Assembly (NCBI GenBank): GCA_029252505.1
Contig: JAQXBH010000279.1
Coordinates: 1-51,441, forward strand
Direction: 5' to 3'
Length of the DNA: 51,441 nucleotides
DNA from: Opitutales bacterium
GTDB taxonomy: Bacteria > Verrucomicrobiota > Verrucomicrobiia > Opitutales > Seribacteraceae
Both the position numbers and the translations under genes were made by a program. The notes under the pieces were generated by a model. It was not told the DNA's origin. It saw nothing but the letters and a program-made list of their open reading frames with translations, and did not search any database. Positions 4,501 through 45,208 of the stretch are shown in pieces (positions within the stretch are counted from its first letter, which is position 1; each line of letters opens with the position of its first letter).

Positions 4501-5016
4501 TGCTGCTTTTAAGGGAACGACTTTTTTATCGTCGGGAGCAGGTAATCCAACATCTGCGACATGAAAAACTCCAGATGTTGTTCGCCTGTCCCGAGATGGA
4601 TTGTGCAGAACACCTTGTGCTACTTTGTAAGAATTGATTATTTTTGATTGAAAATAATTACCGTTGAGGGGCAATGAAGTGATTCGAGCTAATCCATGAC
4701 GATCCAGGACAAAGGACTCAGTGGGTAGACTGGGACGATCGGCACCTAATATTTTGCTTAGAAAATTTTGTATGCGATCATCGATTGGGCACAAGTGTCC
4801 CCTTAGTAATCGCACTTTTTCTCGGTATTCTTTAATTAGAGAACTGCTTAAGCGTATGGCAGGATTATGGCTTTGGTCTCCAACTGTTGGAAGAGCTAAT
4901 GTAGCAAGCTTAAGGTTCGCATAGTTAATAAGTTCTTGATATTCATCAGTATCTGACGAGTAACTAGCACCGATTCCTAAAGCTGATTGTTTGCTTTTAA
5001 CATCGACTGATTTCAT
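1537..5016 (-). CDS. Probable PPi-type phosphoenolpyruvate carboxykinase
   Basis: The product is 1159 residues with no signal peptide or membrane segments. Length and motifs fit the PPi-dependent PEP carboxykinases of Entamoeba and Propionibacterium (about 1100-1150 residues), which interconvert oxaloacetate plus PPi with PEP, phosphate and CO2. Segments supporting this are TGHTGCVIVAPHLAGTPKK, the glycine-rich VSGGGKSEISKPITDAI followed by GPVYVADWEKD, and late in the protein SVTGKSPSTTGAGSEGAMTK. This assignment is from memory of the family; no ATP/GTP-PEPCK P-loop is present. The gene is monocistronic, preceded by about 210 AT-rich bases and the tRNA on the other strand. It could otherwise be an unrelated large conserved protein. 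Many small antisense ORFs inside it are shadows. Confidence 0.6.
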   Translation of the reverse strand: MKSVDVKSKQSALGIGASYSSDTDEYQELINYANLKLATLALPTVGDQSHNPAIRLSSSLIKEYREKVRLLRGHLCPIDDRIQNFLSKILGADRPSLPTESFVLDRHGLARITSLPLNGNYFQSKIINSYKVAQGVLHNPSRDRRTTSGVFHVADVGLPAPDDKKVVPLKAAKELLRIALNPPAEDMVFPFASNEKDPAKCWVSLLLRPVVCPEVEGFIREKSLEVRFFAPGGCVANLDFVESIFGNGGDPFLAENDAGLDIESWTGHTGCVIVAPHLAGTPKKLLQLPKKCDATERQVRDGMYFDDPDEAYNGGDPFKLTFRDSSGMIVTILADNYFGYCKKEVKTQISFSANLSGLGEEEHAGGAVVFPSYDLGEEFNPLEILPPTPQKFSDTLSVMGFSTNDLKNGHLVDPSFESIIYLPENAVFSLREQSINWEGEGKEYRNLRMQPDFAYILPSGYKVEMKKAEHNGPWKLIGTVGEGFLCHKPCTVSGGGKSEISKPITDAIVSGPVYVADWEKDMAMTKELFKKDFSNRFLEPEKHDLRNRPILSPSRSLGSVIKLLTPSRSLYTEDFNKWLESIPQRVKDLILIIKRRHRAEWGDNWEEAFSVDSVNGQPANELRYLGTKLITRHLRIGFDQKGSWRLFALRKDFVPANKILAEDDITASTLAPINLIEHIGHGNFKKSAKFVHNCEYRLFQRPDDAIIRGFDKQTEKDMARPGNFISNFEPLTKKDAQNQIGNTLLFENYTKPIRELIESVAESKKEELSFVSSANPRIVDGKPSKNPRYLQTRPDLFDPRSVYLATAGTRLKRGIKIENSVLYPVRAVLPGRRNNPADKKAKVRPLCCFAPIHYLELPELFMDFIVSVTGKSPSTTGAGSEGAMTKSPFNALLPIHDLNAALISYASTGQGAFVTSAGYVGPKYQVNHDISLLIPEIWSRLRDFEDNPQEMIAKGYLEKVPDFSYQGQNLPTSLLGYRITRSFTHEFLGRIFTDPVSVLPEDMLKPELQDEDQYADSIKNLLETGKNIAQRYFNDNSVEKACPPLKALLTIMTKGEWEGNKLTDKKFRDLFEPSNILQSDWYNERLKTRIQVTRNYWESRVEYLNNFIKDQANKEACKRLSIQEKKNFALNALSELTDNKAAVDRIFGCLGTDPSLFYE

Positions 5017-22779: not shown

Positions 22780-24861
22780 CTAGATTGGTGATGCGACCGG
22801 AAATTTATCTTTAAATGGAAGTGATTCCTCTTCCACAGCATCTGGATTTGAAAAAATTCGGGTTGGATTAGTGTAGAGTGGATTTATGTTAAACTTTCGC
22901 ATTAAAAAGAGCATATCTTGTGAACTCGTTTGAATGGCTTTGACTGCCATCGAACTGTTAGCTTTTACCGCAGCCTCGTCGTTTGTTTTTTTGATAGCAG
23001 ATTTAATCGCCATCGATGATTTGAGTTCAACGATATCGGCAATCGCACTGTCGTATCCTAGGGCAAGTGAGGCCCCTACTGTCGCCCCTTCCGAAGTTCC
23101 TTGATAAATTGCTTGTTTAATAATGAGACCATCTTCTCCTGATTCAATTCCTCCCGTAATCGCACCATAGGTGGACCCGTAGCTAACCGCTTCTGCGGCA
23201 GCAATTGTTTCGAAGTCGTATGTCCTTTTATCGGGCATTGAATCGTTCTTAAGACCAACGACTTGAAATAAGGCACCGTGGGCCGCACCATGAGCCAGTG
23301 CTCGTGCAATTTCGATTTCAAATTCTTCTGTCACTCCTTTAGGCTTATCAATTAAGGATAAGTTTTTAGCAGTTATTCCACCTGTTGTTGCTCCTTGTGC
23401 CGATTGGTTAATAATGGGTTGAAGTAATGTAGGATAATAAACTGCTAAACCAGTATTTCCAATTAACGAACCTAAGGCAGAACCACTTGCAATATCAAGA
23501 ATTTCTCTTCTTGAGGTTTTATCATTGGTATCTTTCACGGTAGGATCGTTTTCAATGTACTGACTTGCGGCATTGATTGAACCATTTGCACTTCCTTTTG
23601 AGGTCGCTTTTGCTAAATTATTTCGATTGTAAAGTTCCCAACCCTCTTCAAATTCCCATGACTTATCTAATACACTTGCCATCTGTGCACCCATTGCAGA
23701 TCCAAATGATGCTGATTCTGCTAACCGGTTTAACAAGTGCCCATTTTGTTGACTAATGGATGAAATTATTACTTGAGACGAAATAGCTTGAGACATAGAT
23801 TCCGCCGCAATTTCAGCAAGTAATAATTCACGATACTCTTCAGTGGAAGAACTGTTGTAAACTGCACTAAGCGTAAGACCGGTAGATAGTGCTTTGGTCA
23901 CAGCATAGGTAAATAAGCTGTTATCGCCTTCCAATGAAGAGAGGTATTCGATCGCACCTGATATTGTAGACTCTCCTAAAATTTGGGAATAGATTTGGAC
24001 ATTTTCTGCTGAAAGCGGAGTGGGTCCATTGTTAAAAAAACCATCCGCCAGTCCTTTTGCCGTATATTCGAGTAACCGCGTTTTTTCAGTATCAAACTTC
24101 ATAAAAGATTCGGTTCCACCGAATGACATTTCCTGACTTGCTACTTTCCTGGAGGGATCTACGGGAGTAATGGAGGGTTGTAGTCCATTTGTCTTAATTG
24201 TGGAGTCATTAATTATCTGTAATATGCTTGAAGTAGTTGCTTTTGATGCCAGTTTTTTTAATTCATTCTTATCTGCTGATATGTTGGCTTCGGAAATCGA
24301 CTCCATAAGGGTAATCGATAATTCTTTAGACCAACTTGGAATGTTTCCTCCCCAAGAATCAACCTTATTAGGAATTAAATTTCTAAAGATAATTCTAGGT
24401 AAATTAGGAATTACTTTCAATAAATCGTCACCTTTGGATTCACTAGAATTCAGGAATGCAATCACACTAGATTTAATTCCTGCTAGTAAATCTCGGTCGG
24501 ATAAATTGAAATTATTTTTATTATCTGAAAGATAGTTTATTGAATATTCTACCGCTTCCGATAAGTTTTCATTAGGAAAACTAGAAAAGGTACTGCTTAA
24601 AGAATTAGTCAATGCAGTAATTTCAGGAAGCGAAGACCTGTTCAAATCTATAATTCCTTGAATGGAAGTACCTGCGTTCACACTCAAACGTCTTTGATAT
24701 GTATTTTGCTTGTGTTCGTTAGAATTGTGAAACTCCTGAAGGTTAATTAGGATCGCGGACTCAACCAAGGCTTTGTCTATACTAGCGCCGTAACATAAAT
24801 GAGCACAGCAAAGCGATGAAGTGTATAACCAATATTTGGGCAAATGGAATCTTCTAGGCAT
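22780..24861 (-). CDS. Secreted repeat protein with recurring G-[AST]-x-x-G boxes
   Basis: The product is 693 residues and not recognised. The N-terminus looks like a signal peptide (WLYTSSLCCAHLCYGA, cleavage near residue 26). The C-terminal half carries seven copies of a box of the form G-[AST]-x-x-G-[AGST]: FGSAMGA, KGSANGS, SGSALGS, QGATTGG, HGAAHGA, YGSTYGA and QGTSEGA. They are spaced 26-37 residues apart, each preceded by a short Ala-rich helix. The pattern suggests a helical repeat packed through small residues, perhaps at the cell surface. It lies next to O-antigen ligase-like and polysaccharide export genes, but no functional tie is proven. Confidence 0.8.
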   Translation of the reverse strand: MPRRFHLPKYWLYTSSLCCAHLCYGASIDKALVESAILINLQEFHNSNEHKQNTYQRRLSVNAGTSIQGIIDLNRSSLPEITALTNSLSSTFSSFPNENLSEAVEYSINYLSDNKNNFNLSDRDLLAGIKSSVIAFLNSSESKGDDLLKVIPNLPRIIFRNLIPNKVDSWGGNIPSWSKELSITLMESISEANISADKNELKKLASKATTSSILQIINDSTIKTNGLQPSITPVDPSRKVASQEMSFGGTESFMKFDTEKTRLLEYTAKGLADGFFNNGPTPLSAENVQIYSQILGESTISGAIEYLSSLEGDNSLFTYAVTKALSTGLTLSAVYNSSSTEEYRELLLAEIAAESMSQAISSQVIISSISQQNGHLLNRLAESASFGSAMGAQMASVLDKSWEFEEGWELYNRNNLAKATSKGSANGSINAASQYIENDPTVKDTNDKTSRREILDIASGSALGSLIGNTGLAVYYPTLLQPIINQSAQGATTGGITAKNLSLIDKPKGVTEEFEIEIARALAHGAAHGALFQVVGLKNDSMPDKRTYDFETIAAAEAVSYGSTYGAITGGIESGEDGLIIKQAIYQGTSEGATVGASLALGYDSAIADIVELKSSMAIKSAIKKTNDEAAVKANSSMAVKAIQTSSQDMLFLMRKFNINPLYTNPTRIFSNPDAVEEESLPFKDKFPVASPI

Positions 24862-32893: not shown

Positions 32894-34252
32894 TTACGAG
32901 ATCCCTTCGATCATCCTTATTGCCTGCGAGTGATTATTGTCTAAATCAACCACGATTTCAAAGTGCATCTTAGCTTTTGAAGTATTTTTTAAGTTAAATT
33001 CAATCTTTCCCAATTCGAAGTGAGATTCGCAATGCGCCCAGTTATTATTACATGATTTGATTAGCATTCTTTGAGCCTCTTCTATTCTGTTTTCATTAAT
33101 AAAATATATGGCTAGTTCAAAATAAGATTCAAAATAATCTGGATTTAGTTTTATAGCGGCAGTCAGTATTTCTTCTTCTCTTTGTTTGATTTTTAAGAAT
33201 TTATTTATTTTGTAATTCTTAATGATAATCTTGGATCGCAACTTTTTTTTCCTAAATGCATTTTTCAAGTGCTTTCTAGCTAGAACGAAGTTAGAAGACT
33301 CGCAGTAATGATTCGATTTATTGTATTCATAATTTTCTTCTAGAATAGCATTTTCTGACGCTTTCTTGAGATGCGTTAAAGTTCCTTTGTAATTTTTTTT
33401 ATGAAAAAGAATTTTTGCAATTTGAAGTAAGCAATTACTTTTCTCGATATTAAAGCTTAAGGCTTCTTTAAAGTATTTCTCCGCTTCGTTTTCATTATTA
33501 TGTAGGTTTATTACTGCAAGTTGATAGGCGGACTTACCCTTCGTTTCATTAAATTGATAAGATTTATTAAAGTATTGAGAAGCTGTTTTAATTTGTTCCC
33601 GCGATAGTTCTAATTTACCAAGGTAATATAATGGAAATCCGGAATGAGGGTTAATTTCTGTAGCAGTTATGAAGAGCTTTTCTGCTTTTTGTAAGTCTGT
33701 TTCAGTCAGTAAAATTTGGTCGTTATTATCTGAATCTTGCTGCATGTAAATTCTGGCAAGGTCTATTATTGGTTCAATGTTACAGGGTAATAAATCGATA
33801 GATATTTCGAGCAAAAGTATTTTTCTTTTGATTTCAGTTTCATCATTCAATAATTTTGAAAGAGAATAGTGTGTTTCTCCATCTAAGGGGCAAAGATCTA
33901 CCAGTTTTTCAAGGTAGGGGATGGCTTGATTTTCTTTTTTGGATTGAACTAATGCTTTGTGAGCTAATTTATAAAATTTGACCTGACTAGAATCACAATG
34001 GATTGCTTGATCGACAAAGATAATAACTTTCTCGTAATTTTGAGTTTCAAAATATAGTTTAGCCTGTAAGAAAAAAAACGAAGACACTTTATGAGTAGTA
34101 GAAAGTGCATGATCAAGAATTTCTTGTGCCTCATTAAAACTTTTCTTTTTTACTAGAATATCACAAAGTTCTATAATAGACGGTAAATGTTGCGGATCAT
34201 TTCTAATCGCAACTTTTAAATGATAAATTGCCTTTTCTTCAATACTGTCCAA
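32894..34252 (-). CDS. Tetratricopeptide-repeat protein (last gene of the cyclase operon)
   Basis: The product is 452 residues, almost entirely TPR-like helical pairs. Examples are YHLKVAIRNDPQHLPSIIEL, SGFPLYYLGKLELSREQIKT and AHCESHFELGKIEFNLKNTS. It is more divergent and more basic than its neighbour. No signal peptide is present, so it is likely a cytoplasmic adaptor. Its TTG start lies one base after the TGA of the preceding TPR gene, showing tight coupling. It is the fourth gene of the coiled coil-cyclase-TPR-TPR operon. What it binds is unknown. Confidence 0.85.
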   Translation of the reverse strand: MDSIEEKAIYHLKVAIRNDPQHLPSIIELCDILVKKKSFNEAQEILDHALSTTHKVSSFFFLQAKLYFETQNYEKVIIFVDQAIHCDSSQVKFYKLAHKALVQSKKENQAIPYLEKLVDLCPLDGETHYSLSKLLNDETEIKRKILLLEISIDLLPCNIEPIIDLARIYMQQDSDNNDQILLTETDLQKAEKLFITATEINPHSGFPLYYLGKLELSREQIKTASQYFNKSYQFNETKGKSAYQLAVINLHNNENEAEKYFKEALSFNIEKSNCLLQIAKILFHKKNYKGTLTHLKKASENAILEENYEYNKSNHYCESSNFVLARKHLKNAFRKKKLRSKIIIKNYKINKFLKIKQREEEILTAAIKLNPDYFESYFELAIYFINENRIEEAQRMLIKSCNNNWAHCESHFELGKIEFNLKNTSKAKMHFEIVVDLDNNHSQAIRMIEGIS

Positions 34253-34253
34253 G

Positions 34254-35843
34254 TCAATTTTTTCTTTTATTTGCTTTGCCTGTTATGGCGTTCTTACGGA
34301 TAGCTTTATTATTTTTCGCTTGAGGCTCTTTCTCTAATGCCTTTTGTGCTTCTTTATCCATTAATAATATGGCTAAACTATAATGCGCCTTAGGGAAATT
34401 GGGATCTAAATTTATTGCCTGTTCAAAATTATACAATGCAGATGAAAACTTCTTTTTTTCATAGAGGAGAATACCTAACCTGTAGAAGGCTTTCGCAAAT
34501 TTAGGATCGATTCTTATCGCATGCTTAAAGTGTTTTTCTGCCTCATCTAATTTAGGTTCTTTTAGTAAGGTCCCATCATTTGATAGTCGTTCTCCAGTTG
34601 TCAGTAGTTTTGCAAACCAATAATGAGAATCTGCCATATCAGACTTTATTTCAATTGCTGTTTCGTAATTCCTAACAGCTTGGTCGTGTTCTGATGGGCT
34701 TTTTAGAATTCTTGCTAAATTGAAATAAGCATCCACATAGTTCTGATCTACATCAGTTGCTTTTTGAAAGTGAATTTTTGCTTCATTAATATCACCGTTT
34801 TTTTCTGAGTGGTGCGCTAATTCATAATAGGCAAGTGCATACTCGGGATTGATTTCTAAAGCCTTAAAGAAGTGTTTTTTTGCAAGGGTAGGGTCATCAT
34901 CTTCTTTCAACAACATTGCTAAGTGAAAATGTGCCTCCGAATGAAGAGGGTCAATTAACACCGCTTTTTTGAGGTTTTCTTCTGCTTTTTTCAAATCACC
35001 AGTTTGGACCAGAATAACACCGAGTCGAAAATGTGCTAAGGCATTTTCCTGGTGATATTTGAGCGACAGATCATAGTGCGATATTGCTCTTTCAATTTCA
35101 CTGCTTTCCTCAAAAACATAGGCAATTAGATAATGTGCTTTTGAGTATTCAGGATTGATTTTAAGAGATTTAGTTAAATGTTCTTTTGCTGATGTAAAGT
35201 CTTTTTCAGTGCAAAGAATTTTAGCCAAATTGTAATGTGCTTGTGCATGATTCCTGTTGATTTTAATGACGGCGTTGAAGTGTTTTTTTGCTTCAGGAAG
35301 GTTTGTTCTGTCTACGATTGTTCCTTCTTTATTAGTTGCTACGCCTCCAGATAGTAATTTCCCCATGGAGTAGTGTGCGTCTACATATTGTTCATCAATA
35401 TCCAATGCTGTTTCATAGTTTTTTCTAGCATCTTCATAGTCGTCTGCATTGGTTAATAAGGTGGCTTTGTGGTAATATGCCGGTGCATAGTTTTGATTAA
35501 TTTCGGTAACCTTATCAAAGTTGTTTTTAGCTTCTTCAATGTCATTAATTTGAATTAGTAATAATGCATAATTAAAATAAGCATGTGCATAGTTTGGGTT
35601 AATTTCTAGTGAATTAAGAAAATGATTACGTGCATTCTCATGATCGCCATCTGCGGTCAGGGCAATTGCTAATTCGCATTGGGCTTCTGCAAAATCGTTA
35701 TCAATACTAACAGACTTTTTTAGATGTTTTACTGATTCTTTAATTTCACCTTGTTCCTTGAGGAGCATTCCTAGTTCATAGTATGCTTCTGCGAAATCTG
35801 GATTTAGGGCAATTGCTTTTTCTAGGTGGATTTTCGGATTCAT
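34254..35843 (-). CDS. Tetratricopeptide-repeat protein
   Basis: The product is 529 residues built from about 13 regular TPRs beginning at residue 5 (AIALNPDFAEAYYELGMLL). Each repeat has the canonical A-hh-h-P-x-h-x-x-A-H/Y-h-x-h-A pattern. Two copies carry longer inserts (GGVATNKEGTIVDRTNLPE and TTGERLSNDGTLLKEPKLDE) that resemble each other, suggesting duplication of a multi-TPR block. A basic Lys/Asn-rich tail ends the chain (AITGKANKRKN). No signal peptide. It lies 18 bases after the cyclase gene and one base before the next TPR gene. It is probably a scaffold for the cyclase or for the coiled-coil partner. Confidence 0.92.
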   Translation of the reverse strand: MNPKIHLEKAIALNPDFAEAYYELGMLLKEQGEIKESVKHLKKSVSIDNDFAEAQCELAIALTADGDHENARNHFLNSLEINPNYAHAYFNYALLLIQINDIEEAKNNFDKVTEINQNYAPAYYHKATLLTNADDYEDARKNYETALDIDEQYVDAHYSMGKLLSGGVATNKEGTIVDRTNLPEAKKHFNAVIKINRNHAQAHYNLAKILCTEKDFTSAKEHLTKSLKINPEYSKAHYLIAYVFEESSEIERAISHYDLSLKYHQENALAHFRLGVILVQTGDLKKAEENLKKAVLIDPLHSEAHFHLAMLLKEDDDPTLAKKHFFKALEINPEYALAYYELAHHSEKNGDINEAKIHFQKATDVDQNYVDAYFNLARILKSPSEHDQAVRNYETAIEIKSDMADSHYWFAKLLTTGERLSNDGTLLKEPKLDEAEKHFKHAIRIDPKFAKAFYRLGILLYEKKKFSSALYNFEQAINLDPNFPKAHYSLAILLMDKEAQKALEKEPQAKNNKAIRKNAITGKANKRKN

Positions 35844-35861
35844 TGCGAGTGTACTCCAGTG

Positions 35862-38147
35862 CTATTTACTTGTCATTACCCACACGCCATTCCAATCTCC
35901 TTTAGGTGGGTTTTTTTTCATATGTTCGCAACGGTCTAAATATAATTGGGCTGCCTTATCCTGGGGATTAATTTTTTGAACATTCTTAAATAGTTTAACT
36001 GCTTGATCCCATTTCCCTTCGTTCCAAGATCGGTATCCGTCATTAAATATACCGAGGGCATCGACCAAGTTTGGGTAAGATTTCTCATTATGAAAATCAA
36101 GTACTTCGTGTATCCCAACTGGTTCTGTTTTTCCTTTAACAATAACGTAGTCCACTTGTCGGGTCCGATATGTTGCCTTCACTGCTTTGTGGGTATATTC
36201 GCTAATCAAGATATGTGCACCGTATTGCTTGCAGGCACTTTCAATTCTTGCAGCGAGGTTCACTCCATCTCCAATGACCGTGTAGTCCATCCTCTTAGGT
36301 GACCCGATATTACCTGACACTATCGAATCTGTGTTTATCCCCATCCCATGATCTATGGGCATTTTGCCCTCCGATGAACGCTTATCATTAAAGACATTCA
36401 AGTCGGTCATCATTCGAATAGCGGCTCGAACTGCTCTATCTGGGTCGTCATCGTGGGGAACAGGAGTGCCAAAAATGCACATCATCGCATCTCCAATAAA
36501 TTTATCCAACATCCCGCCCTCGTCAGTTATACAGTCCACCATAATTGTAAAGTAATCATTTAGTAGCTTCACCGTTCCTTGAGCTCCGAGTTCCTCAGTA
36601 ATCGTAGTAAAACTTCTTACGTCAGAAAATAGTACTGTTCCAACGCTTTGCTTTCCCCCCATTATATCATCGCCGTCCCCGGCAGCCATAAGCTGATCGG
36701 CTAATTCAGGGTCCATATATCGCGACATAGTAGACTTCATTCTTTTCTCGGAACTGATGTCTTCAATCATTAGCATAGTTCCTAAGTTTTCATTTTTTTG
36801 GCCCAGTAGTGGCATTAAGGAGATATTTACAGAAAGTTTTTCCCCTTCCATAGATAATTCTGCATCCAAAAAATCTTCCTGTTCTTCGACTAATTCTAAT
36901 TTCTTTAGCAACCAATCATTAGCTCCATTAAAAATTTCTTTTATAGGTTTTTCTAATATTTCTGATAAAATGGGGACTTTTAGAATTCGTAAACCAGCAC
37001 TGTTGCAAGTTTTGATTACTCCATGTTCATCTAGAGTTAACACCGCATCGTGCATGCTTGAAAGAATACTCTCGGAATAATTTTTTTGATTTTGGACATC
37101 ATCGAAAAGTTTCGCATTCTCAATCCCCATCGATATCTGAGAAGTGAAAGCAGCTAATCGTTTTTCGTCTTCAGAATTAAATGCCCCTCCTCTTTTATTT
37201 AGAACCTGGCTAACCCCTATTGTTTTTCCCTCTTTGTTGAGCACTGGCATGCAGAGAATGGAACGAGTGAAAAAACCAGTTTGCTTGTCAAAGCTTGGAT
37301 TAAAACGCAAGTCGGCGTATGCGTGCGGAATATTTACTGGTTTTGCGGATGTAAACACAGTCCCAGCAATACCTAAATGGTTGGGAAACTTAATAACTGA
37401 CTTTTCATCAAGACCTTCGCCGACTTCAGTATATAATTCGTTTGTTTTCTCATCATTTATAAATAAAGTTGCCCTTTCGCAATCGAGCATCGTTGAGATA
37501 GTTGTGATGATTTTCTGGAGTAGGGGAGTAAGTTCTAATTCAGAGGAAACTTGAGACACTACATCTAGAAATTCTAACTCCTGCTTTCGAGCGGCTTCGA
37601 TTTGTTCAACGATAATATTTCCTTGAATTGCAATTGCAGCCTGTTCGGTCATCGCTTCCAGCAGGTCAAGGTCGTCCTGTTCAAATTCCCCATCGATTTT
37701 GTTCAGAATTTGGGAAACACCAATTTCTTCACCTGACACAGTTCGCAGAGGAGCACAAAGAATACTTTTCGTTCTAAATCCTGTTCTTACATCAACCGCC
37801 TTGTTAAATCGGTCATCTTTGTAGGCATCATGTATAATCGCACCTTTATTTTGTGTGAAAACCCACCCCGCGACACCTTTTGTGTTAAGGATTCTAATCT
37901 CTCTGCGAAAACTGCCTTGAGCAATTCTGGAATACAATTCTCCGGTTGCAGCATCATTTAAAAAAATGGTACCTCTTTCTGCGCCGATAGTAGTAGTCGT
38001 TATCTTAACTAGAGTTTCGAGTGCCTCGTCTAAGCTTTTCGTTTTTGCAAGGTCAGTTGTGACCTGCAATAGCATGTCAGAAAATCTGGCTGTCCTTTTT
38101 GACTTTGGATGTGATTGTTTCTCAGTATTTTTATCTTTATCTTGCAT
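35862..38147 (-). CDS. GAF-GAF-PAS class III adenylate/guanylate cyclase
   Basis: The product is 761 residues and soluble. Two GAF domains (about 25-180 and 195-345; both have a FxxxTGFxTRSILCxPL block) are followed by a PAS-like domain (about 355-475). The class III cyclase domain (about 495-690) has metal aspartates D509 (FSDVRSF) and D553 (DKFIGDAMM), Lys549 and Thr623 at the base-selecting positions (class IIIb pattern), and catalytic N630 and R634 (VNLAARIE). All required residues are present. A TPR-like tail ends in DWNGVWVMTSK. It probably makes cAMP in response to ligands of the GAF domains. It overlaps the coiled-coil gene by 11 bases. Confidence 0.94.
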   Translation of the reverse strand: MQDKDKNTEKQSHPKSKRTARFSDMLLQVTTDLAKTKSLDEALETLVKITTTTIGAERGTIFLNDAATGELYSRIAQGSFRREIRILNTKGVAGWVFTQNKGAIIHDAYKDDRFNKAVDVRTGFRTKSILCAPLRTVSGEEIGVSQILNKIDGEFEQDDLDLLEAMTEQAAIAIQGNIIVEQIEAARKQELEFLDVVSQVSSELELTPLLQKIITTISTMLDCERATLFINDEKTNELYTEVGEGLDEKSVIKFPNHLGIAGTVFTSAKPVNIPHAYADLRFNPSFDKQTGFFTRSILCMPVLNKEGKTIGVSQVLNKRGGAFNSEDEKRLAAFTSQISMGIENAKLFDDVQNQKNYSESILSSMHDAVLTLDEHGVIKTCNSAGLRILKVPILSEILEKPIKEIFNGANDWLLKKLELVEEQEDFLDAELSMEGEKLSVNISLMPLLGQKNENLGTMLMIEDISSEKRMKSTMSRYMDPELADQLMAAGDGDDIMGGKQSVGTVLFSDVRSFTTITEELGAQGTVKLLNDYFTIMVDCITDEGGMLDKFIGDAMMCIFGTPVPHDDDPDRAVRAAIRMMTDLNVFNDKRSSEGKMPIDHGMGINTDSIVSGNIGSPKRMDYTVIGDGVNLAARIESACKQYGAHILISEYTHKAVKATYRTRQVDYVIVKGKTEPVGIHEVLDFHNEKSYPNLVDALGIFNDGYRSWNEGKWDQAVKLFKNVQKINPQDKAAQLYLDRCEHMKKNPPKGDWNGVWVMTSK

Positions 38148-40515
38148 TTTTATCCTCTAATTCAGCCCGTAGTTCAATGATTGTTGCCTGCAGATCTTTA
38201 AATTCCATTGTTTTGATTTGGTTTTCTTTCTGCAAATTTTCTTCATGTAAATTCTTTTTTAAGTCAATTTCATCCCTCAATGCATTAACCATGCTCTTAA
38301 AGTGATTGATTTCTCGTTGTTGTGTCGAGACAGCTTTTTGTATGTCATCTTCTTTACTTATTTCAAGTTTTTCTATTTCTGATCTTAGTGAAGTTATATT
38401 TTCTCTCAATTGTTTAATTTCACTTGCGGCCAATGCGATGTTTCTTTGATTTTTATCTTCTTTCTTTTGTCTAAATTCGTCGATTTGGGTACGCAAAGAT
38501 AATACAGAAGACTTTAGAAGTTCATTTTCTTTGTTACTAGAAAAAACTGCCTTTTGTATAGATTCTTCTTTTTCAATACTCTTTGCATCTAATTCATCCC
38601 TTAATTGCGAAATATTGGCTTTTAAAAGCTTAACCTCGCTTTCCTTGGCAGCAACCGCCTGCTGAACAGCATCCTGTTTATCAAAAGTCAGTTTATCAAT
38701 TTTATCCCTGCCTAGTGCGACGCTTTCTCTCAGCGTTTTTAATTCGATGGAAAACGAAGTTTCTACTTTTTGAACAATTTCGATTTCATTATATTGTGCG
38801 TTTTCAAGTTCGCATCTTAAGTTTTTAATTGTATTTTTAAGTGAAGAGATTTCAGCTTCCGACCTTTGATGAGTCCTTTGAATCTTATCATCAGACCTAG
38901 ATTTTGAGAATTCAAGTTGCTCGCGTAAACTCTGTAACGAATTTTTTAATTGGCTGATCTCGTTAAGAGAACTTGAGTAGGCATTTTGTACATTTTCTTC
39001 TTCTTTGATCTGTGCCTTATCTAGTTCATCGCGCAAAGAAGAACTTAATTCCTTAAGGGAACGAATTTCGTTTTCTTTTGTAGCAATTGCTCTTTGAACA
39101 TCCGCCGCTGTATCTAAGCGTGCTTTCTCCAGTTGATTCCTTAATGTAACTAAGGAATCTTTTAATTGATTAATTTCTAGATTAGATAATGAGATCGCTT
39201 CTTGAACCGATTGATCCTTTTCAATCATACTCTTCTCTAGTTCTTCCCGTAGCTCTGTAACAGTTCTTTGAAGAGACCTTGATAGAGTATTGGCTGCCGC
39301 AGTTGCTTTCTGAATTTTATCTTCTTCCCTTGCCTTTGCATTTTCTAAGTTACTACGAACCATCGATAATGAATTCTTTAATTGTTGAATTTCACTCTGG
39401 GCCGTGGATACCGCAAGTTGAACAGATTCATCTTTTTCAATTATCACCCTTTCCAGTTCTTCTCTAATTTCTGAAATCGTTTTTTTTAATGAACTAATTT
39501 CTGTATGGGCAGTGGCTCTTGATTTTTGAATTCGATCCTCTTCTCTTGCTTTTGAGAGTTCTAGATTGTCCCGAGATAAAGAAAGAGATGCCCTGAGTTG
39601 GCGAATTTCATCCTGACCAACTGCTACCGCTTTTTGAACACTTACAGCTTCTTTTGAAATGGTGTTTTCTAATTCTTGACGCAAATTTTGGATTGTTGAC
39701 TTAAGTGAATTTATTTCCCTCGAGTTAGAGCTATTTATTTTTTGAACCTTCTCATCTTGTTCGTTTTGCTTTCTCTCCAATTTTTCTCTTGATAGCAAAA
39801 GTGTTGCTTTTAAAGAGGCGACCTCAGAAATGTTTGTTGAATTAATCTTTTGTATTGCATTGAGTTTACTATTTTCAGCTCCCTCTACTTCCGACCGTAA
39901 AGCCTTAATCGCTTTCTTTAATTCATTGATTTCATTTAAGGAAGAAGAGCGGGTTTTCTGAAGTTTGTCTTCGTTATCAGATTGTATGCGGTCAATTTTT
40001 TCTCTCAGCGACTGAGACGACTTTTGTAATTGTTGAATTTCTTGCCGAGCACTTCGTCTCGCTTTCTGTTCAATATCACTTTTTTCTGCCTCTGACTGGT
40101 CTAATGCGTTACGAATTTCCAAAAGGCTTTTCTTGAGCCCTAGATTTAATTGATTTTCTTGACCAATTACTTTTTGAATTTCCTCATCTGATTTTGAACG
40201 ACTAATTTCAAGCTCTAACCTTAAGTTTTTAATTACTTCTTTTAATTGGTTTTCATTTTGATTATTGAAAGACCGGATCGATTGCTTTTCGTCCTCTGCG
40301 ACACCAATAATTTTTTCATTTTCATCTCTTTGCTTTTCGATGATTTGTTTTAAAACATTAATTTCACTGGAAAATTCTAAGGTCTTTAACTGCAATAACG
40401 ACAGTTGTTCGCTAGAAACCCTTTCTAGCTCGCCTCTAAGATTTAAAATCGTTTGTTTAAGAAAACGGCTTTCCTGAGTGAGTAATTCAGCCTCTTCATT
40501 TAATAATTGAGACAT
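38137..40515 (-). CDS. Giant coiled-coil protein made of 36-residue repeats
   Basis: The product is 792 residues, equal to 22 units of 36. The unit begins L-K-x-S/T-h-x-x-L-R-x-E-L-E and continues K-E-E-x-h-Q-K-A, with almost no indels from residue about 20 to the end. The 36 spacing is consistent with mixed heptads and hendecads (11+11+7+7). It is very rich in Glu, Lys, Ser, Leu and Gln, with no signal peptide, Pro or globular part. A rod about 115 nm long would result if fully helical (inference). It is the first gene of the cyclase-TPR operon and overlaps the cyclase by 11 bases. A scaffold or filament role is likely but not shown. Confidence 0.88.
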   Translation of the reverse strand: MSQLLNEEAELLTQESRFLKQTILNLRGELERVSSEQLSLLQLKTLEFSSEINVLKQIIEKQRDENEKIIGVAEDEKQSIRSFNNQNENQLKEVIKNLRLELEISRSKSDEEIQKVIGQENQLNLGLKKSLLEIRNALDQSEAEKSDIEQKARRSARQEIQQLQKSSQSLREKIDRIQSDNEDKLQKTRSSSLNEINELKKAIKALRSEVEGAENSKLNAIQKINSTNISEVASLKATLLLSREKLERKQNEQDEKVQKINSSNSREINSLKSTIQNLRQELENTISKEAVSVQKAVAVGQDEIRQLRASLSLSRDNLELSKAREEDRIQKSRATAHTEISSLKKTISEIREELERVIIEKDESVQLAVSTAQSEIQQLKNSLSMVRSNLENAKAREEDKIQKATAAANTLSRSLQRTVTELREELEKSMIEKDQSVQEAISLSNLEINQLKDSLVTLRNQLEKARLDTAADVQRAIATKENEIRSLKELSSSLRDELDKAQIKEEENVQNAYSSSLNEISQLKNSLQSLREQLEFSKSRSDDKIQRTHQRSEAEISSLKNTIKNLRCELENAQYNEIEIVQKVETSFSIELKTLRESVALGRDKIDKLTFDKQDAVQQAVAAKESEVKLLKANISQLRDELDAKSIEKEESIQKAVFSSNKENELLKSSVLSLRTQIDEFRQKKEDKNQRNIALAASEIKQLRENITSLRSEIEKLEISKEDDIQKAVSTQQREINHFKSMVNALRDEIDLKKNLHEENLQKENQIKTMEFKDLQATIIELRAELEDKNAR
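38150..40460 (-). repeat. Coding tandem repeat, 108-base unit (36 codons), about 21-22 copies
   Basis: The gene for the coiled-coil protein repeats with a 108-base period throughout. At protein level consecutive units align without gaps. At DNA level the copies look diverged, so this is an old duplication rather than a recent slippage array. Confidence 0.75.
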
Positions 40516-40645
40516 AATTGTTGACTAAAAGATAGATTAGAGGACAAATTTGCAAACAATAAGATTTAAGAAACTAATTATGCTTGCAAAGACATGATTG
40601 AGCTTTTTGGTTGGTATCCTTAAAATTGCATCCATTGCTCTGATA

Positions 40646-41833
40646 ATGAAATATTTATATTCTGCTCATTTGGCTCTATTACTTCAGATCTGTGTTTCTT
40701 GCTCGGATCATGAAAAAGGTGAAGCACTAACCGTCGACTTAGTGCCTCCTCAAACAGATAATATCAACGATTTCGAGGAGGGGGTAAGAATAGATAATTC
40801 AAAGTTTGACGAGTTAGACTTCGAAAGTTTGTTGAGTCAGGACAGCAATGTTGTCGCTATTGATGTGGCGGGTGCTTCTGAGATTAATGGTGAACATAAC
40901 AATTTAAACATGAGCGGAGAATCTGTTCCATTAGATGTTAAAATAAGTAAAGAATTAGAGGCAGAGACTGCCTTGAAGAATTTGGAGCTAAATTCAGTCG
41001 AGCGACAAAAATCAATCGAAGATTTAAGAAAAATTAACAACAAAAAGGACCAGACCATTGCATCTCTATCTCTCTTGAACGATGAGTTGATTTCTGAAAT
41101 CAAAAGGATCAAGGGCGATGTTTACAGAGATGCCGAAACATCTGTCACAGGTCTTGGATCGGGAAACCAACTAGATTCCCTGAAGTCCGAAGTAAAGAAA
41201 CTTAAAAACAACCTAGCCTTAAAGTCAGAGGAATTAAAAAGCCTGAGATACCGAAATGATTCACTTGAGGGCAGAATTAGCGACTTGGAACTATCTCCAA
41301 CCACAAGCAAATCTAACTTACTTCCCATATTTCCTTCAACAAATTCTTATGATTCAAGTAAAGTTAATCTTTTTAGCCCAAAAACAAGCGGACAGTGTAA
41401 GCTTCAATTTGAAGCTGTAGTCACCGCTTTAAATGGGAAAAGTAAAGAGGCTTTTTATACGGAATTTTTTATCTTACCGACTAGTCTGGAAAACATTATG
41501 AGGAAAGGTGGTATTGAGCTTGCTAGCTACACAGGAATAGATACCTATGCAGAATTGTGGGCTCGCTCCAGGAAAAATGCATTTCTGTTTCCTGATGTTC
41601 ACAAAAAATTCAGATCGCTATTGCTAGATTTTGAAGATAGCGGAGAAGGAAAAAGGATAAGAACCGATGTTGATGGATCGGCTTTCGTAGATGGGCTACC
41701 AGCGGGAAAGTATTTTGTGATTGGTACCGCATCTTTGGGAAAAGTGGGTGTGACTTGGAGTGTACCTGTTAGTCTAAATAACGGAAATAATAAAATTTCT
41801 TTAACCTTAGCAAATTGCTCTTGGAGTTTGTAG
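40646..41833 (+). CDS. Putative coiled-coil surface lipoprotein, divergent from the cyclase operon
   Basis: Starting at the ATG at 40646 gives 395 residues (the frame is open from TTG 40598). The N-terminus MKYLYSAHLALLLQICVSCSD resembles a lipoprotein signal with Cys near residue 19, although the residue at -3 is Cys and makes the lipobox weak. A disordered acidic region follows (20-100). A coiled coil comes next (about 105-230, NLELNSVERQKSIEDLRKI and KSEVKKLKNNLALKSEEL). A C-terminal globular domain (about 265-395) has beta-rich FxxDxDGSAFVDGLPAGKYFVIG, a carboxypeptidase-regulatory-like pattern. Its start is about 130 bases from that of the coiled-coil gene in divergent orientation. Function unknown. 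Confidence 0.72.
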   Translation: MKYLYSAHLALLLQICVSCSDHEKGEALTVDLVPPQTDNINDFEEGVRIDNSKFDELDFESLLSQDSNVVAIDVAGASEINGEHNNLNMSGESVPLDVKISKELEAETALKNLELNSVERQKSIEDLRKINNKKDQTIASLSLLNDELISEIKRIKGDVYRDAETSVTGLGSGNQLDSLKSEVKKLKNNLALKSEELKSLRYRNDSLEGRISDLELSPTTSKSNLLPIFPSTNSYDSSKVNLFSPKTSGQCKLQFEAVVTALNGKSKEAFYTEFFILPTSLENIMRKGGIELASYTGIDTYAELWARSRKNAFLFPDVHKKFRSLLLDFEDSGEGKRIRTDVDGSAFVDGLPAGKYFVIGTASLGKVGVTWSVPVSLNNGNNKISLTLANCSWSL

Positions 41834-41925: not shown

Positions 41926-44094
41926 ATGGCACCGGAACAATCATCTGACCAAAGTAAGTTGCAACTCAGTATGCAACAAAAAATAAGTATTCTTCTATCT
42001 TTTGCGAAAGATAAAGTCATTGAGCAAATTCAATGTGTCTGGTTCATCATAATGTACCTTGTTGTTTTTCAGATATTAGTACTAGGTTTGCCAATCGTTT
42101 ATTCGCTAATGATTGCTGTCGGTATTCTCATTGTAATTGTTGGTTTAGCTTTTTTTATGGAGGGATTAAGGCTCGGGTTAATGCCATTAGGCGAGACTTT
42201 AGGATCTACTTTGCCTAGAAAGAAAATTTTAGGCATCCCATGCTTGCCTGCTAGTTTGGCTTTTGGCTTTGTCCTCGGTGCTTTTGCAACTTTTGCTGAA
42301 CCTGCTATCGGAGTACTTAGGGCTGCAGGATCCGGAGTTGATCCTACCGCTGCACCACTACTTTGGACTATACTTAACACAGGTGCAGCAATGCTCGTTA
42401 ATTGTGTAGGTGTTGGTGTGGGTATCGCAGTCTTACTTGGCGTTTTGAGGTTTTACAAGGGGTGGTCGTTGAAACCTTTTATTTATGTAGGAGTTGTTGT
42501 TTTATCATGCATTACACTCTACATGCAGTTTTCCGATGATAGATTAAGGCATGTTCTTGGCCTTGCATGGGACTGTGGAGCGGTTACTACTGGTCCTGTT
42601 ACTGTTCCCCTTGTACTTGCTCTCGGGATTGGCGTTTGTCGAATTGTTTCGACTGGTGGTTCCAGCAACACTGGTTTTGGAGTTGTTACCCTCGCCTCAC
42701 TTTTTCCGATCTTGGCAGTGATGTGTTATGCTTTGTTTCTGTTTAATGGAGACAACTACTATATGGCTAAGCATTCGAAGGCAGATTGGCATGTTAATGC
42801 AGGAGAGTACGGTAAAAATTATCCCAAAGACCTCCAACAATATGGAGATATTGTCGCGGCTGAACGATTAGCAGCCTCTGGAGCTATCGATGAAAACGAA
42901 TTATTTTGGTCTCTTTCAACCGCGGAGAGGGAGTCAGTTGACGAGTATTTAACAAAATTCCATAAATTACCTGAAGGATACGCACTAAAAACAAGAATAA
43001 CGGAGGGTAAAATTGTACCGAACTTAGTTGGTGATGTTGATGATGATTCTCGCGAAAATGTGGAAGTTCAGGGAGCCAAGACATATGTTGTTAGAGAAGG
43101 TTTTAAGGCACCGGATGGGGTTTGGGATAAAGATGCAGATATCGCAACCGCGTTTACAAATAAATTTGATTTTTTTCCTAACACTTTTAAGCCCGAAGAA
43201 GACAAAAACGGTAATGGAGCATTAGATAAAGGAGAAGACTTTTACAGCATAACTGAAAGTGGGACAATTGATTACACTAAGAAAAACGGTGAGCTCGATG
43301 GCCCTGACCAAGATAGGGGAGCATTGGAAGGTGCAGTTTGGGCAATTGTCCCTTTGTGTTCAATTCTATTGCTTGTATTGATAGGTGGACTAAGACAAAA
43401 ACCCAAACATATAGACGAGTTGTTTATCGGCATTGCATGTGCGGTCATTGGCATGTGTTTATTTAACCTTGGCATTGCACTTGGACTTACACCTCTTGGA
43501 GAACAACTAGGTGGGAATGTTGTATCTAGTTTTACATCTATTCAGCCTTGGCAAAGCGAGGGTTTTGTAGAGCCCTTGTTCAAATCATCAACAGCTGGGA
43601 AATGCCTCGCAATTCTATTCGGTTTTATTCTAGGTTACGGAGCAACCCTTGCGGAACCTGCCCTTAATGCGCTAGGTTCAACTGTCGAGAAAATAACTGT
43701 CGGAGCATTTAAGAAGAATCTACTTATGCAAGCAGTTGCAACAGGAGTTGCGCTTGGAATCGCGACTGGCGTTGCAAAAATTGCTTTTAATTTAGAACTT
43801 TGGTATTTGTTAATCCCTCCTTATGCATTTCTCCTTGTTCTGACTTTCTTTTCCAGTGAAGATTTTGTAAATTTTGGTTGGGATAGTGCTGGGGTAACAA
43901 CAGGTCCAATTACTGTTCCTCTTGTTCTCGCTATGGGATTAGGTATCGGTGCAAAAACAGGTGCGATTGATGGGTTTGGTGTTCTTTCATTAGCATCTGT
44001 AGGGCCTATAATAACGGTATTAACAGTTGGTCTGCTAGTGAAGAAAAAGCCGAGCCCATCTGAGAATATTGAAAATTCAATGGAGACTGCATAA
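41926..44094 (+). CDS. Duplicated DUF1538 membrane protein with an EF-hand-like central insert
   Basis: The product is 722 residues. Two homologous membrane halves (about 40-285 and 465-710) share LG-h-x-PLGExLG (MPLGETLGSTL; TPLGEQLGGNV), AEPA (FAEPAIGVL; LAEPALNAL) and TTGP-x-TVPLVLA (AVTTGPVTVPLVLA; GVTTGPITVPLVLA). This is the DUF1538 pattern, a family of unknown, perhaps transport, function. Between them a soluble insert (about 285-465) contains a full EF-hand-type loop, DKNGNGALDKGE (residues 426-437). It is followed one base later by a triple PII-like gene, suggesting nitrogen- or nucleotide-linked control of transport. Confidence 0.88.
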   Translation: MAPEQSSDQSKLQLSMQQKISILLSFAKDKVIEQIQCVWFIIMYLVVFQILVLGLPIVYSLMIAVGILIVIVGLAFFMEGLRLGLMPLGETLGSTLPRKKILGIPCLPASLAFGFVLGAFATFAEPAIGVLRAAGSGVDPTAAPLLWTILNTGAAMLVNCVGVGVGIAVLLGVLRFYKGWSLKPFIYVGVVVLSCITLYMQFSDDRLRHVLGLAWDCGAVTTGPVTVPLVLALGIGVCRIVSTGGSSNTGFGVVTLASLFPILAVMCYALFLFNGDNYYMAKHSKADWHVNAGEYGKNYPKDLQQYGDIVAAERLAASGAIDENELFWSLSTAERESVDEYLTKFHKLPEGYALKTRITEGKIVPNLVGDVDDDSRENVEVQGAKTYVVREGFKAPDGVWDKDADIATAFTNKFDFFPNTFKPEEDKNGNGALDKGEDFYSITESGTIDYTKKNGELDGPDQDRGALEGAVWAIVPLCSILLLVLIGGLRQKPKHIDELFIGIACAVIGMCLFNLGIALGLTPLGEQLGGNVVSSFTSIQPWQSEGFVEPLFKSSTAGKCLAILFGFILGYGATLAEPALNALGSTVEKITVGAFKKNLLMQAVATGVALGIATGVAKIAFNLELWYLLIPPYAFLLVLTFFSSEDFVNFGWDSAGVTTGPITVPLVLAMGLGIGAKTGAIDGFGVLSLASVGPIITVLTVGLLVKKKPSPSENIENSMETA

Positions 44095-44095
44095 T

Positions 44096-45208
44096 ATGAG
44101 CGAACTTACAATAAGCAATAGTGTGTCTTTATTGACACTAATTTTACCGAAGGAATCTGTAGGTCATGTTTCCAAAGCAATCTCCGAATCAGGCGCAAAG
44201 GGGATTGTTCAGATTAGTGCGAGAGGCTCCGTTTTAAATGAGGGTGGATTTTTGCAGAAAATGTTCCCCCCCCCCGCACCTGAACAGCAACTCCTGCAGG
44301 CTTTAGTACCCAATGCCAAGATCGAAGAAATTACTGATAAAGCCATTGAAGTCGGTAACCTAGATAAAGTCGGTGGTGGTGCAGTATTTACAATTTCTTG
44401 TAATGATGCTCATTTTTCAAAGAATTTCCCCACGAATGTAGTTAATTCTGATGATGCCAGTGCAAATATTTCCTCTGGTAATCTTGAGGCAATTTGTTGT
44501 ATATGTGAGATTGGTGTAGCAGATGATATTGCCAAAGCGGCATTACAAAATGGCGCACCCGGACCTACTGTAACTTTTGGTGAAGGGGGTGGGGTAAGAG
44601 ATAAAATTCCAATTTTACGAATTACAAAAGGACCAGAAAAAGAATTTGTATGGTGTGTCGTCGAAAAATCAGATTCAGATGCAATTTTCGCCGATATGGC
44701 CCGTGCTGGACGTATTACGGAGCCCGGTAGAGGGTTTATGTATTCTATTCCGGTTAGTTCTGGATTGATTAATGTCTCAAGCACTGTTTCGTCTTCTGCT
44801 CATGGAGCAAACATGGAGCAAATAATTGCAGCACTCGATGACCTAAAAGGCGATAAGGATTGGAGGCAGTCGATTGATGCCCAAAAGGGTAAATCTCTTA
44901 AAACAACTTATTTAGAAGACTTGGTTGGTATTTATTGTATCATACCCAGAGATAACTACTCAGAAGTTTATGACGCAGTCTTAGCTTCTGGTGCTCCTGG
45001 TGTTAGTACTAATTTCGGAGTGATGATAGATTCTGATAGTGACCAACAACAAAATGAAGAATGGGCTTTAGTTTACACTTCAGTCGGTCCCAAAAGTGTT
45101 GATGGATTAAGAAATACTGTGGAAGAAAAGATAACATCATTGGGTATTGATCGGTTTGCGTTTTACACATTACCAATACCGAGGGCTCTCACTTATCTTG
45201 GAGGTTGA
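44096..45208 (+). CDS. Protein with three tandem PII-like domains
   Basis: Starting at the ATG one base after the DUF1538 stop gives 370 residues. Three PII-like units (about 1-105, 118-225 and 270-370) each have an opening strand (SLLTLILPKESVGHVSKAI; AICCICEIGVADDIAKAAL; GIYCIIPRDNYSEVYDAVL). Each continues with G-A-K/P-G and a T-loop-like turn (GAKGIVQISARGS; GAPGPTVTFGEGGG; GAPGVSTNFG). This suggests a pseudo-trimer in one chain, since PII proteins act as trimers. It probably binds nucleotide and regulates the neighbouring membrane protein (inference). A run of ten C (44266-44275) lies in the first domain and encodes F-P-P-P. Confidence 0.85.
   Translation: MSELTISNSVSLLTLILPKESVGHVSKAISESGAKGIVQISARGSVLNEGGFLQKMFPPPAPEQQLLQALVPNAKIEEITDKAIEVGNLDKVGGGAVFTISCNDAHFSKNFPTNVVNSDDASANISSGNLEAICCICEIGVADDIAKAALQNGAPGPTVTFGEGGGVRDKIPILRITKGPEKEFVWCVVEKSDSDAIFADMARAGRITEPGRGFMYSIPVSSGLINVSSTVSSSAHGANMEQIIAALDDLKGDKDWRQSIDAQKGKSLKTTYLEDLVGIYCIIPRDNYSEVYDAVLASGAPGVSTNFGVMIDSDSDQQQNEEWALVYTSVGPKSVDGLRNTVEEKITSLGIDRFAFYTLPIPRALTYLGG

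Follow-up and report, generated by a model that had tools for sequence, protein, structure and literature searches.

A predicted helical rod of exact 36-residue repeats encoded beside a class III adenylate cyclase in several bacterial phyla

The four-gene locus and its repeat rod

We analyzed a 51,441-nucleotide stretch of DNA from an Opitutales bacterium (Verrucomicrobiota; assembly GCA_029252505.1, contig JAQXBH010000279.1), which we refer to as the window, in which four minus-strand open reading frames (ORFs) form an operon in the order rod, cyclase, TPR-A and TPR-B. The contig is part of a 3.1-Mb metagenome-assembled genome (MAG) whose nearest named relatives are marine Opitutales MAGs, and the operon lies within housekeeping chromosome. 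The rod gene, here called CC36, and the cyclase gene have been inherited together, side by side and in the same order, with no exception found. The features of the operon are as follows.

38137 to 40515, minus strand: CC36 rod gene, 792 amino acids, ATG start; 22 exact 36-residue repeats, all predicted helix, 0 proline
38137 to 38147, minus strand: 11-bp overlap between rod stop and cyclase start
35862 to 38147, minus strand: adenylate cyclase gene, 761 amino acids, ATG start; GAF-GAF-PAS-cyclase-TPR
37626 to 38033, minus strand: GAF-A domain, cyclase residues 39-174 (Pfam)
37104 to 37529, minus strand: GAF-B domain, cyclase residues ~207-348; complete NKFDE; R225, T227, V242, D287
36756 to 37073, minus strand: PAS domain, cyclase residues 359-464 (Pfam)
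36123 to 36638, minus strand: class III cyclase catalytic domain, residues 504-675; D509, K549, D553, T623, N630, R634
35913 to 36068, minus strand: three TPR-like C-terminal helices of the cyclase, residues 694-745 (AlphaFold2 model)
34254 to 35843, minus strand: TPR-A, 529 amino acids, ATG start; lineage-specific third gene
32894 to 34252, minus strand: TPR-B, 452 amino acids, TTG start; fast-evolving fourth gene

An earlier, sequence-only reading of this DNA had described four coupled genes, and the ORF coordinates confirmed this arrangement: the rod and cyclase genes overlap by 11 bases, an 18-base gap precedes TPR-A, and a single base separates TPR-A from TPR-B. The 11-bp overlap, computed across relatives, recurs in most genomes of the window's family and is an apparent case of translational coupling. 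Pfam placed two GAF domains, a PAS domain and Guanylate_cyc in the 761-amino-acid protein and TPRs in the third and fourth proteins, so that the two large TPR proteins of that reading also stood. No obvious N-terminal hydrophobic segment was visible by eye in the operon proteins.

The 792-residue protein had been taken for a pure coiled coil. It is indeed pure predicted helix, but rather than a generic coiled coil it belongs to a family of exact 36-residue repeats, being 22 x 36 residues long with none inserted or missing and a single register throughout. Its self-identity is 0.269 at a lag of 36 and 0.350 at a lag of 72, compared with ~0.06 at lags of 35 and 37, and its hydrophobic period is 3.600 residues. 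This 36-residue periodicity is far above chance. In relatives from the window's family and in G053, which belongs to another family of that order, the conserved N- and C-terminal anchors lay exactly 15, 17, 19, 21 or 23 x 36 residues apart, the count for G023 being partial where its contig is cut. Rod orthologues down to 35% identity carried no net indels, while the lengths of neighboring proteins vary freely.

Array size ranges from about 4 to 26 repeats across phyla. Within the window's family there are 16 to 24, and the count is always even, since A and B repeats come in alternating pairs; the two types differ at positions 29 (Lys/Glu), 23 (Leu/Ile) and 22 (Ser/Thr); length changes there involve the gain or loss of whole A/B pairs only. 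A strict 72-residue rule for all phyla was rejected, given that arrays of 5, 7, 9, 13 and 15 repeats occur elsewhere and that G053 has no clear A/B alternation. Four arrays (L145, L176, L183 and L187) show phase or frame breaks.

Across phyla, the repeat consensus is keeaVQxAvAxAxdEIrQLKxTvxALRDELExxRxe, with a recurring face motif, E15..QLK.T(V/I)..LR(D/E).LE, in which Arg27 stands out. Arg27, almost invariant in the window rod, was present in 275 of 275 in-phase repeats from 47 non-Opitutales loci; in the same set Glu15 reached 88%, Leu19 94%, Thr22 82%, Leu26 94%, Leu30 85% and Glu31 83%, percentages that are somewhat favorable because the score used to pick repeats includes these columns. 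Each repeat splits into an Ala-rich and a Leu-rich half, which alternate along the rod, and in most loci the tail beyond the last Arg27 has a nearly constant length of ~9-11 residues. For a straight helix, 36 residues amount to ten turns at 3.6 residues per turn, or ~5.35 nm; successive copies of the motif would then face the same way at intervals of 5.35 nm. AlphaFold2 modeled the six-repeat rod of Terasakiella brassicae, a cultivated species, as one continuous helix over residues 3-215 with a predicted local distance difference test score (pLDDT) of 91, a result that speaks to chain conformation and not to oligomeric state. The trimer motif R-h-x-x-h-E found no match in the rod by eye, position 28 being Asp/Glu.

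Two Neomarinimicrobiota genomes stand out for array length. The longest single array observed, 26 repeats in a 941-amino-acid frame, is in G885 (L235 4765-7590, minus strand), and that of G886 may be longer, with 18 + 12 repeats on two contig ends (L237 6100-8105 and L236 1-1329, plus strand). Arrays in Margulisbacteria and UBP8 (L129 187-1818 and L128 8314-9942, plus strand) consist of repeats ~60% identical to one another, with the last two divergent, which suggests that they expanded recently.

The rod matched no Pfam family, scored far below cutoff in NCBIfam (an SMC-like family at 22.6 versus 567 bits) and had no relative below E = 0.8 in a sequence search of the PDB.

Pairing of rod and cyclase across genomes

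We scanned named genomes with the cyclase alignment; full-length relatives, 58-98% identical, were present at 80 loci spread over Verrucomicrobiota, Neomarinimicrobiota, Alpha-, Beta- and Deltaproteobacteria, Armatimonadota and Margulisbacteria. The groups represented included Opitutales, Neomarinimicrobiota, UBP8, Margulisbacteria, Armatimonadetes and Deltaproteobacteria such as Humidesulfovibrio, together with Rhodospirillales, Terasakiella, Magnetovibrio, Methylocystaceae, Rhodocyclaceae, Sulfuritalea and Burkholderiaceae. A CC36 array was the ORF directly upstream of the cyclase, on the same strand, at 79 of the 80; at the remaining locus (L132) the contig begins at the cyclase. From rod stop to cyclase start the distance was at most ~250 bp in 75 of the 79, the widest gap being ~900 bp (L129).

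Co-occurrence was assessed in both directions with separate profiles, A2 for the rod (six repeats) and A3 for the cyclase. Among 666 genomes, both partners were present in the same 33 and neither was found alone anywhere: the rod and the cyclase orthologue occurred in the same 5 of 195 Verrucomicrobiota, the same 22 of 241 Alphaproteobacteria (20 adjacent, with G433 and G435 carrying them on separate contigs) and the same 6 of 230 Gammaproteobacteria. A one-way search, starting from the rod, found that 13 of 13 rods in 245 Neomarinimicrobiota genomes adjoin a cyclase. The same 31 of 57 relatives carry both genes, and in 15 other genomes the rod matches fell at one array each. The orthologue cut was set after we had seen the gap in cyclase scores (full-length proteins at least 1102 bits, a contig-end fragment 994, paralogues at most 954), and the paralogues were all without a rod. 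We claim no p-value because the genome counts share ancestry; rather, the argument for an obligate pairing is that there were zero exceptions across several phyla, and a functional coupling of rod and cyclase is well supported.

Several simpler accounts of this pattern were considered. A chance similarity to generic coiled coils was rejected, as the six-repeat profile at E <= 1e-10 matched no genome lacking the cyclase orthologue among the 666. Synteny alone was also rejected as the cause of adjacency, since the other neighbors differ between phyla; in an all-against-all comparison of neighbors, the rod was the sole one that different phyla share, and the TPR genes came next (Opitutales and Neomarinimicrobiota). 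Within a genus the whole region is syntenic, and we retain that explanation for the flanking genes there. Long frames near the pair that could be mistaken for fusions (e.g., G298, 1064 amino acids) proved by coordinate arithmetic to lie in a reading frame different from that of the rod.

We looked for signs that the neighborhood is not conserved, or that cyclase and coiled coil fail to co-occur, and found the opposite: gene order is kept in the window's family and the pair is kept across phyla. The sequence-only reading had nevertheless treated all four genes as one unit, and here only the rod-cyclase part held, the TPR genes being confined to Opitutales and most Neomarinimicrobiota loci. In the window's family, TPR-A comes after the cyclase in every genome whose contig extends far enough; TPR-B evolves fast, with identity as low as ~21% within that family, and the genes that replace it in other genera also hold TPRs. 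In 5 of 6 Neomarinimicrobiota loci two TPR genes occupy the same place, encoding proteins shorter than TPR-A, and elsewhere the rod-cyclase pair occurs without them. The conserved unit is the pair, with the TPR genes as lineage-specific additions.

Other neighbors of the rod gene were also observed. A 411-amino-acid protein with a hydrophobic start, a coiled-coil stretch and no Pfam family is encoded divergently from it (window positions 40598-41833, plus strand) and stays beside it in the window-family genomes examined. In Neomarinimicrobiota, a conserved gene of 218-245 codons lies just upstream of the rod (L124 8566-9222, L125 768-1505, L127 4953-5675, L130 165-869 and L131 4762-5430); the one product tested, from L124, has no Pfam family. 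Farther away in the window, the gene for a double DUF1538 membrane protein overlaps a gene for a 379-amino-acid protein with a weak P-II domain match (41926-45208, plus strand), possibly a P-II-regulated transporter pair, and two large proteins of 693 and 1159 amino acids have no Pfam family (22780-24861 and 1537-5016, both minus strand).

The cyclase and how the rod may act on it

The GAF-GAF-PAS-class III cyclase architecture of the 761-amino-acid protein was evident from Pfam, from an AlphaFold2 model and from a Foldseek match to PDB 1YKD. Its best solved relatives are the GAF tandems of PDE5 and CyaB2 and bacterial class III cyclases. The model is of moderate quality (pLDDT 74.5; predicted template modeling score 0.38), with domains in the expected order and an opening helix that runs into GAF-A. 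The sequence-only reading had credited the enzyme with all its catalytic residues and hence with production of cyclic AMP (cAMP). We found D509, D553, K549, T623, N630 and R634, which have metal, substrate and transition-state roles, to be invariant in 16 orthologues, and these residues support the prediction that the cyclase makes cAMP.

The cAMP contacts of CyaB2 are R291, T293, I308, D356 and N359 (PMC4411481). GAF-B keeps the equivalents of three (R225, T227 and D287), has V242 as a conservative replacement for I308 and has T290 in place of N359; its NKFDE motif is complete. The cyclase bears putative hallmarks of self-activation by cAMP. In a quick tree, the rod-linked cyclases grouped in a single clade with full support, separated by a long stem from their nearest paralogues, which are rod-less. 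A second, larger cyclase (frame of ~1250-1370 amino acids; G000:C105:6378-7352 and relatives) is present without a rod in most window-family genomes and shares its cyclase-TPR half with the rod-linked enzyme at ~39% identity. A plasmid search returned weak full-length relatives only, at ~27% identity. Three proteins with cyclic nucleotide monophosphate (cNMP)-binding domains (PF00027) are encoded in the window's genome and could receive the cAMP signal.

We propose, with a probability of about 0.5, that CC36-AC is a two-gene signaling module in which the rod binds and organizes cyclase dimers, with local feedback along the rod. The rod would be a straight parallel coiled coil whose repeats line up identical sites for docking or self-assembly. 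By analogy with Anabaena CyaB1/CyaB2, cAMP bound to the GAF domains would activate the cyclase, and clustering of cyclases on the rod could make this positive feedback local and switch-like, with a cAMP signal that grows in proportion to the number of repeats. The three cNMP-binding-domain proteins could read the cAMP, and TPR proteins co-transcribed with the pair in Opitutales and Neomarinimicrobiota may dock clients on the assembly. We infer that the rod scaffolds the cyclase, and suggest binding, per-repeat docking and localized feedback, because of the periodicity, the conservation of the surface and the known behavior of CyaB1/CyaB2. A more specific version is tentative: CC36-AC might be a signaling machine of a new class, on whose modular rod each identical 5.35-nm repeat might dock one self-activating cyclase dimer (or a neighboring rod), repeat number might set the strength or range of local cAMP, and evolution might tune it by whole repeats, as 72-residue A/B pairs in the window's family. 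The signaling-scaffold idea of the sequence-only reading is therefore partly supported, through the conserved pairing with a cAMP cyclase, although the TPR genes fall outside the conserved unit and the coiled coil is not a generic one.

Several observations weigh against an organizing rod. Arrays of 4 repeats (~21 nm) suffice in many species, so function does not require a long filament. Sequence conservation is much stronger in the cyclase than in the rod, a difference to be expected if the enzyme were more important than the precise surface of the rod. In GAF-B, T290 stands in for N359 at one of the five CyaB2 cAMP contacts, and the NKFDE motif of GAF-A is missing its final residue. No rod-cyclase fusion, which would have spoken for physical contact, was found. 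The main rival, possible but in our judgment doubtful, is that the rod is a regulatory subunit that packs against the cyclase dimer, on its N-terminal helices and those between the GAF domains, and switches the enzyme's activity (e.g., through register or tension), repeat number giving the mechanical reach to an anchor. That the pairing is obligate even at 4 repeats, that the cyclase begins with a helix into GAF-A, and that the rod ends at a near-constant distance after its last Arg27, as if the C-terminus had a fixed role, all favor such a subunit. Yet it leaves unexplained up to 26 repeats in one register with one surface motif, which suggests that every repeat is used and not the end only.

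The remaining alternatives seem weaker. The link could be only genetic, with both genes in one pathway (the rod being, for example, a downstream structural target of cAMP) and translational coupling fixing their stoichiometry without direct contact; the overlapping or adjacent genes fit this, but one would expect a downstream target to be missing or located elsewhere in some genomes, no sample separated the two, and we consider the idea unlikely. Less plausible still is a tropomyosin-like ruler whose repeats each match a single subunit in a bacterial filament and which localizes the cyclase as a passenger. The exact, indel-free periodicity, the alternation of Ala-rich and Leu-rich halves and a spacing close to that of subunits in actin-like filaments (5.1-5.5 nm) agree with a ruler; however, 36 x 0.1485 nm gives 5.35 nm, more than MreB's roughly 5.1 nm, a mismatch that accumulates over 22 repeats, and the neighbor comparison linked no filament gene to the pair. 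Finally, PADLOC PycC profiles match the catalytic domain, as they would in an anti-phage cyclic-nucleotide system such as Pycsar. We rejected membership as extremely improbable: the match is to the shared class III cyclase fold only, no cyclic-nucleotide-gated effector was recognized among the neighbors of the cyclase, the neighborhood is housekeeping chromosome and the residues are of adenylate cyclase type.

Comparison with known systems

The cyclase is of a known kind. Neither the rod family nor its obligate pairing turned up in Pfam, NCBIfam, the PDB or the open-access papers searched. In those papers we met no description of a 36-residue-repeat coiled coil together with a cyclase, or of a cytoskeletal coiled coil together with a class III cyclase, although an earlier account is possible; the sequence-only reading likewise knew of no system of this make-up. 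Such a pair, never separated in our samples from several phyla and with one partner that belongs to no database family, gives a strong lead toward a cAMP signaling mechanism that has yet to be described; its hosts are bacteria of marine, freshwater, groundwater and sediment habitats. The rod also provides an unusually clean case, in nature, of a helical array with an exact period of 3.6 residues and an Arg that recurs invariantly every 36 residues, and the six-repeat version of T. brassicae makes the localization of cyclic-nucleotide signaling in bacteria directly testable.

Bacterial scaffolds and filaments of the crescentin and FilP/Scy type are, like the rod, long cytoplasmic coiled coils without other domains. 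The rod differs from them in that its 36-residue repeat is exact and free of indels, its hydrophobic period is 3.600 rather than that of a plain heptad, each repeat has an invariant Arg, and it is obligately paired with a cyclase. Tropomyosin is likewise a long helical rod, with a surface motif that repeats regularly and a core in which Ala and Leu zones alternate, but it resembles CC36 by analogy only; the PDB sequence search found no sequence relationship. The polar hubs FimV (Pseudomonas) and HubP (Vibrio) are similar in that a TPR or scaffold protein is suspected to localize a cyclic-nucleotide enzyme, but these hubs are described as LysM-transmembrane-TPR proteins (PMC12918733). A repeat rod in an operon with a cyclase is a feature of CC36-AC and is not known from these hubs.

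The closest likeness is to Anabaena CyaB1/CyaB2, where our cyanobacterial comparison covered the CyaB2 GAF structure (PDB 1YKD). The GAF-GAF-PAS-cyclase order, the NKFDE motif of GAF-B and the class III adenylate cyclase residues are alike, and of the five cAMP contacts three are kept, one is conservatively replaced and one differs. What sets the rod-linked cyclase apart is that it forms its own clade relative to the nearest paralogues sampled, with the CC36 rod gene always directly upstream.

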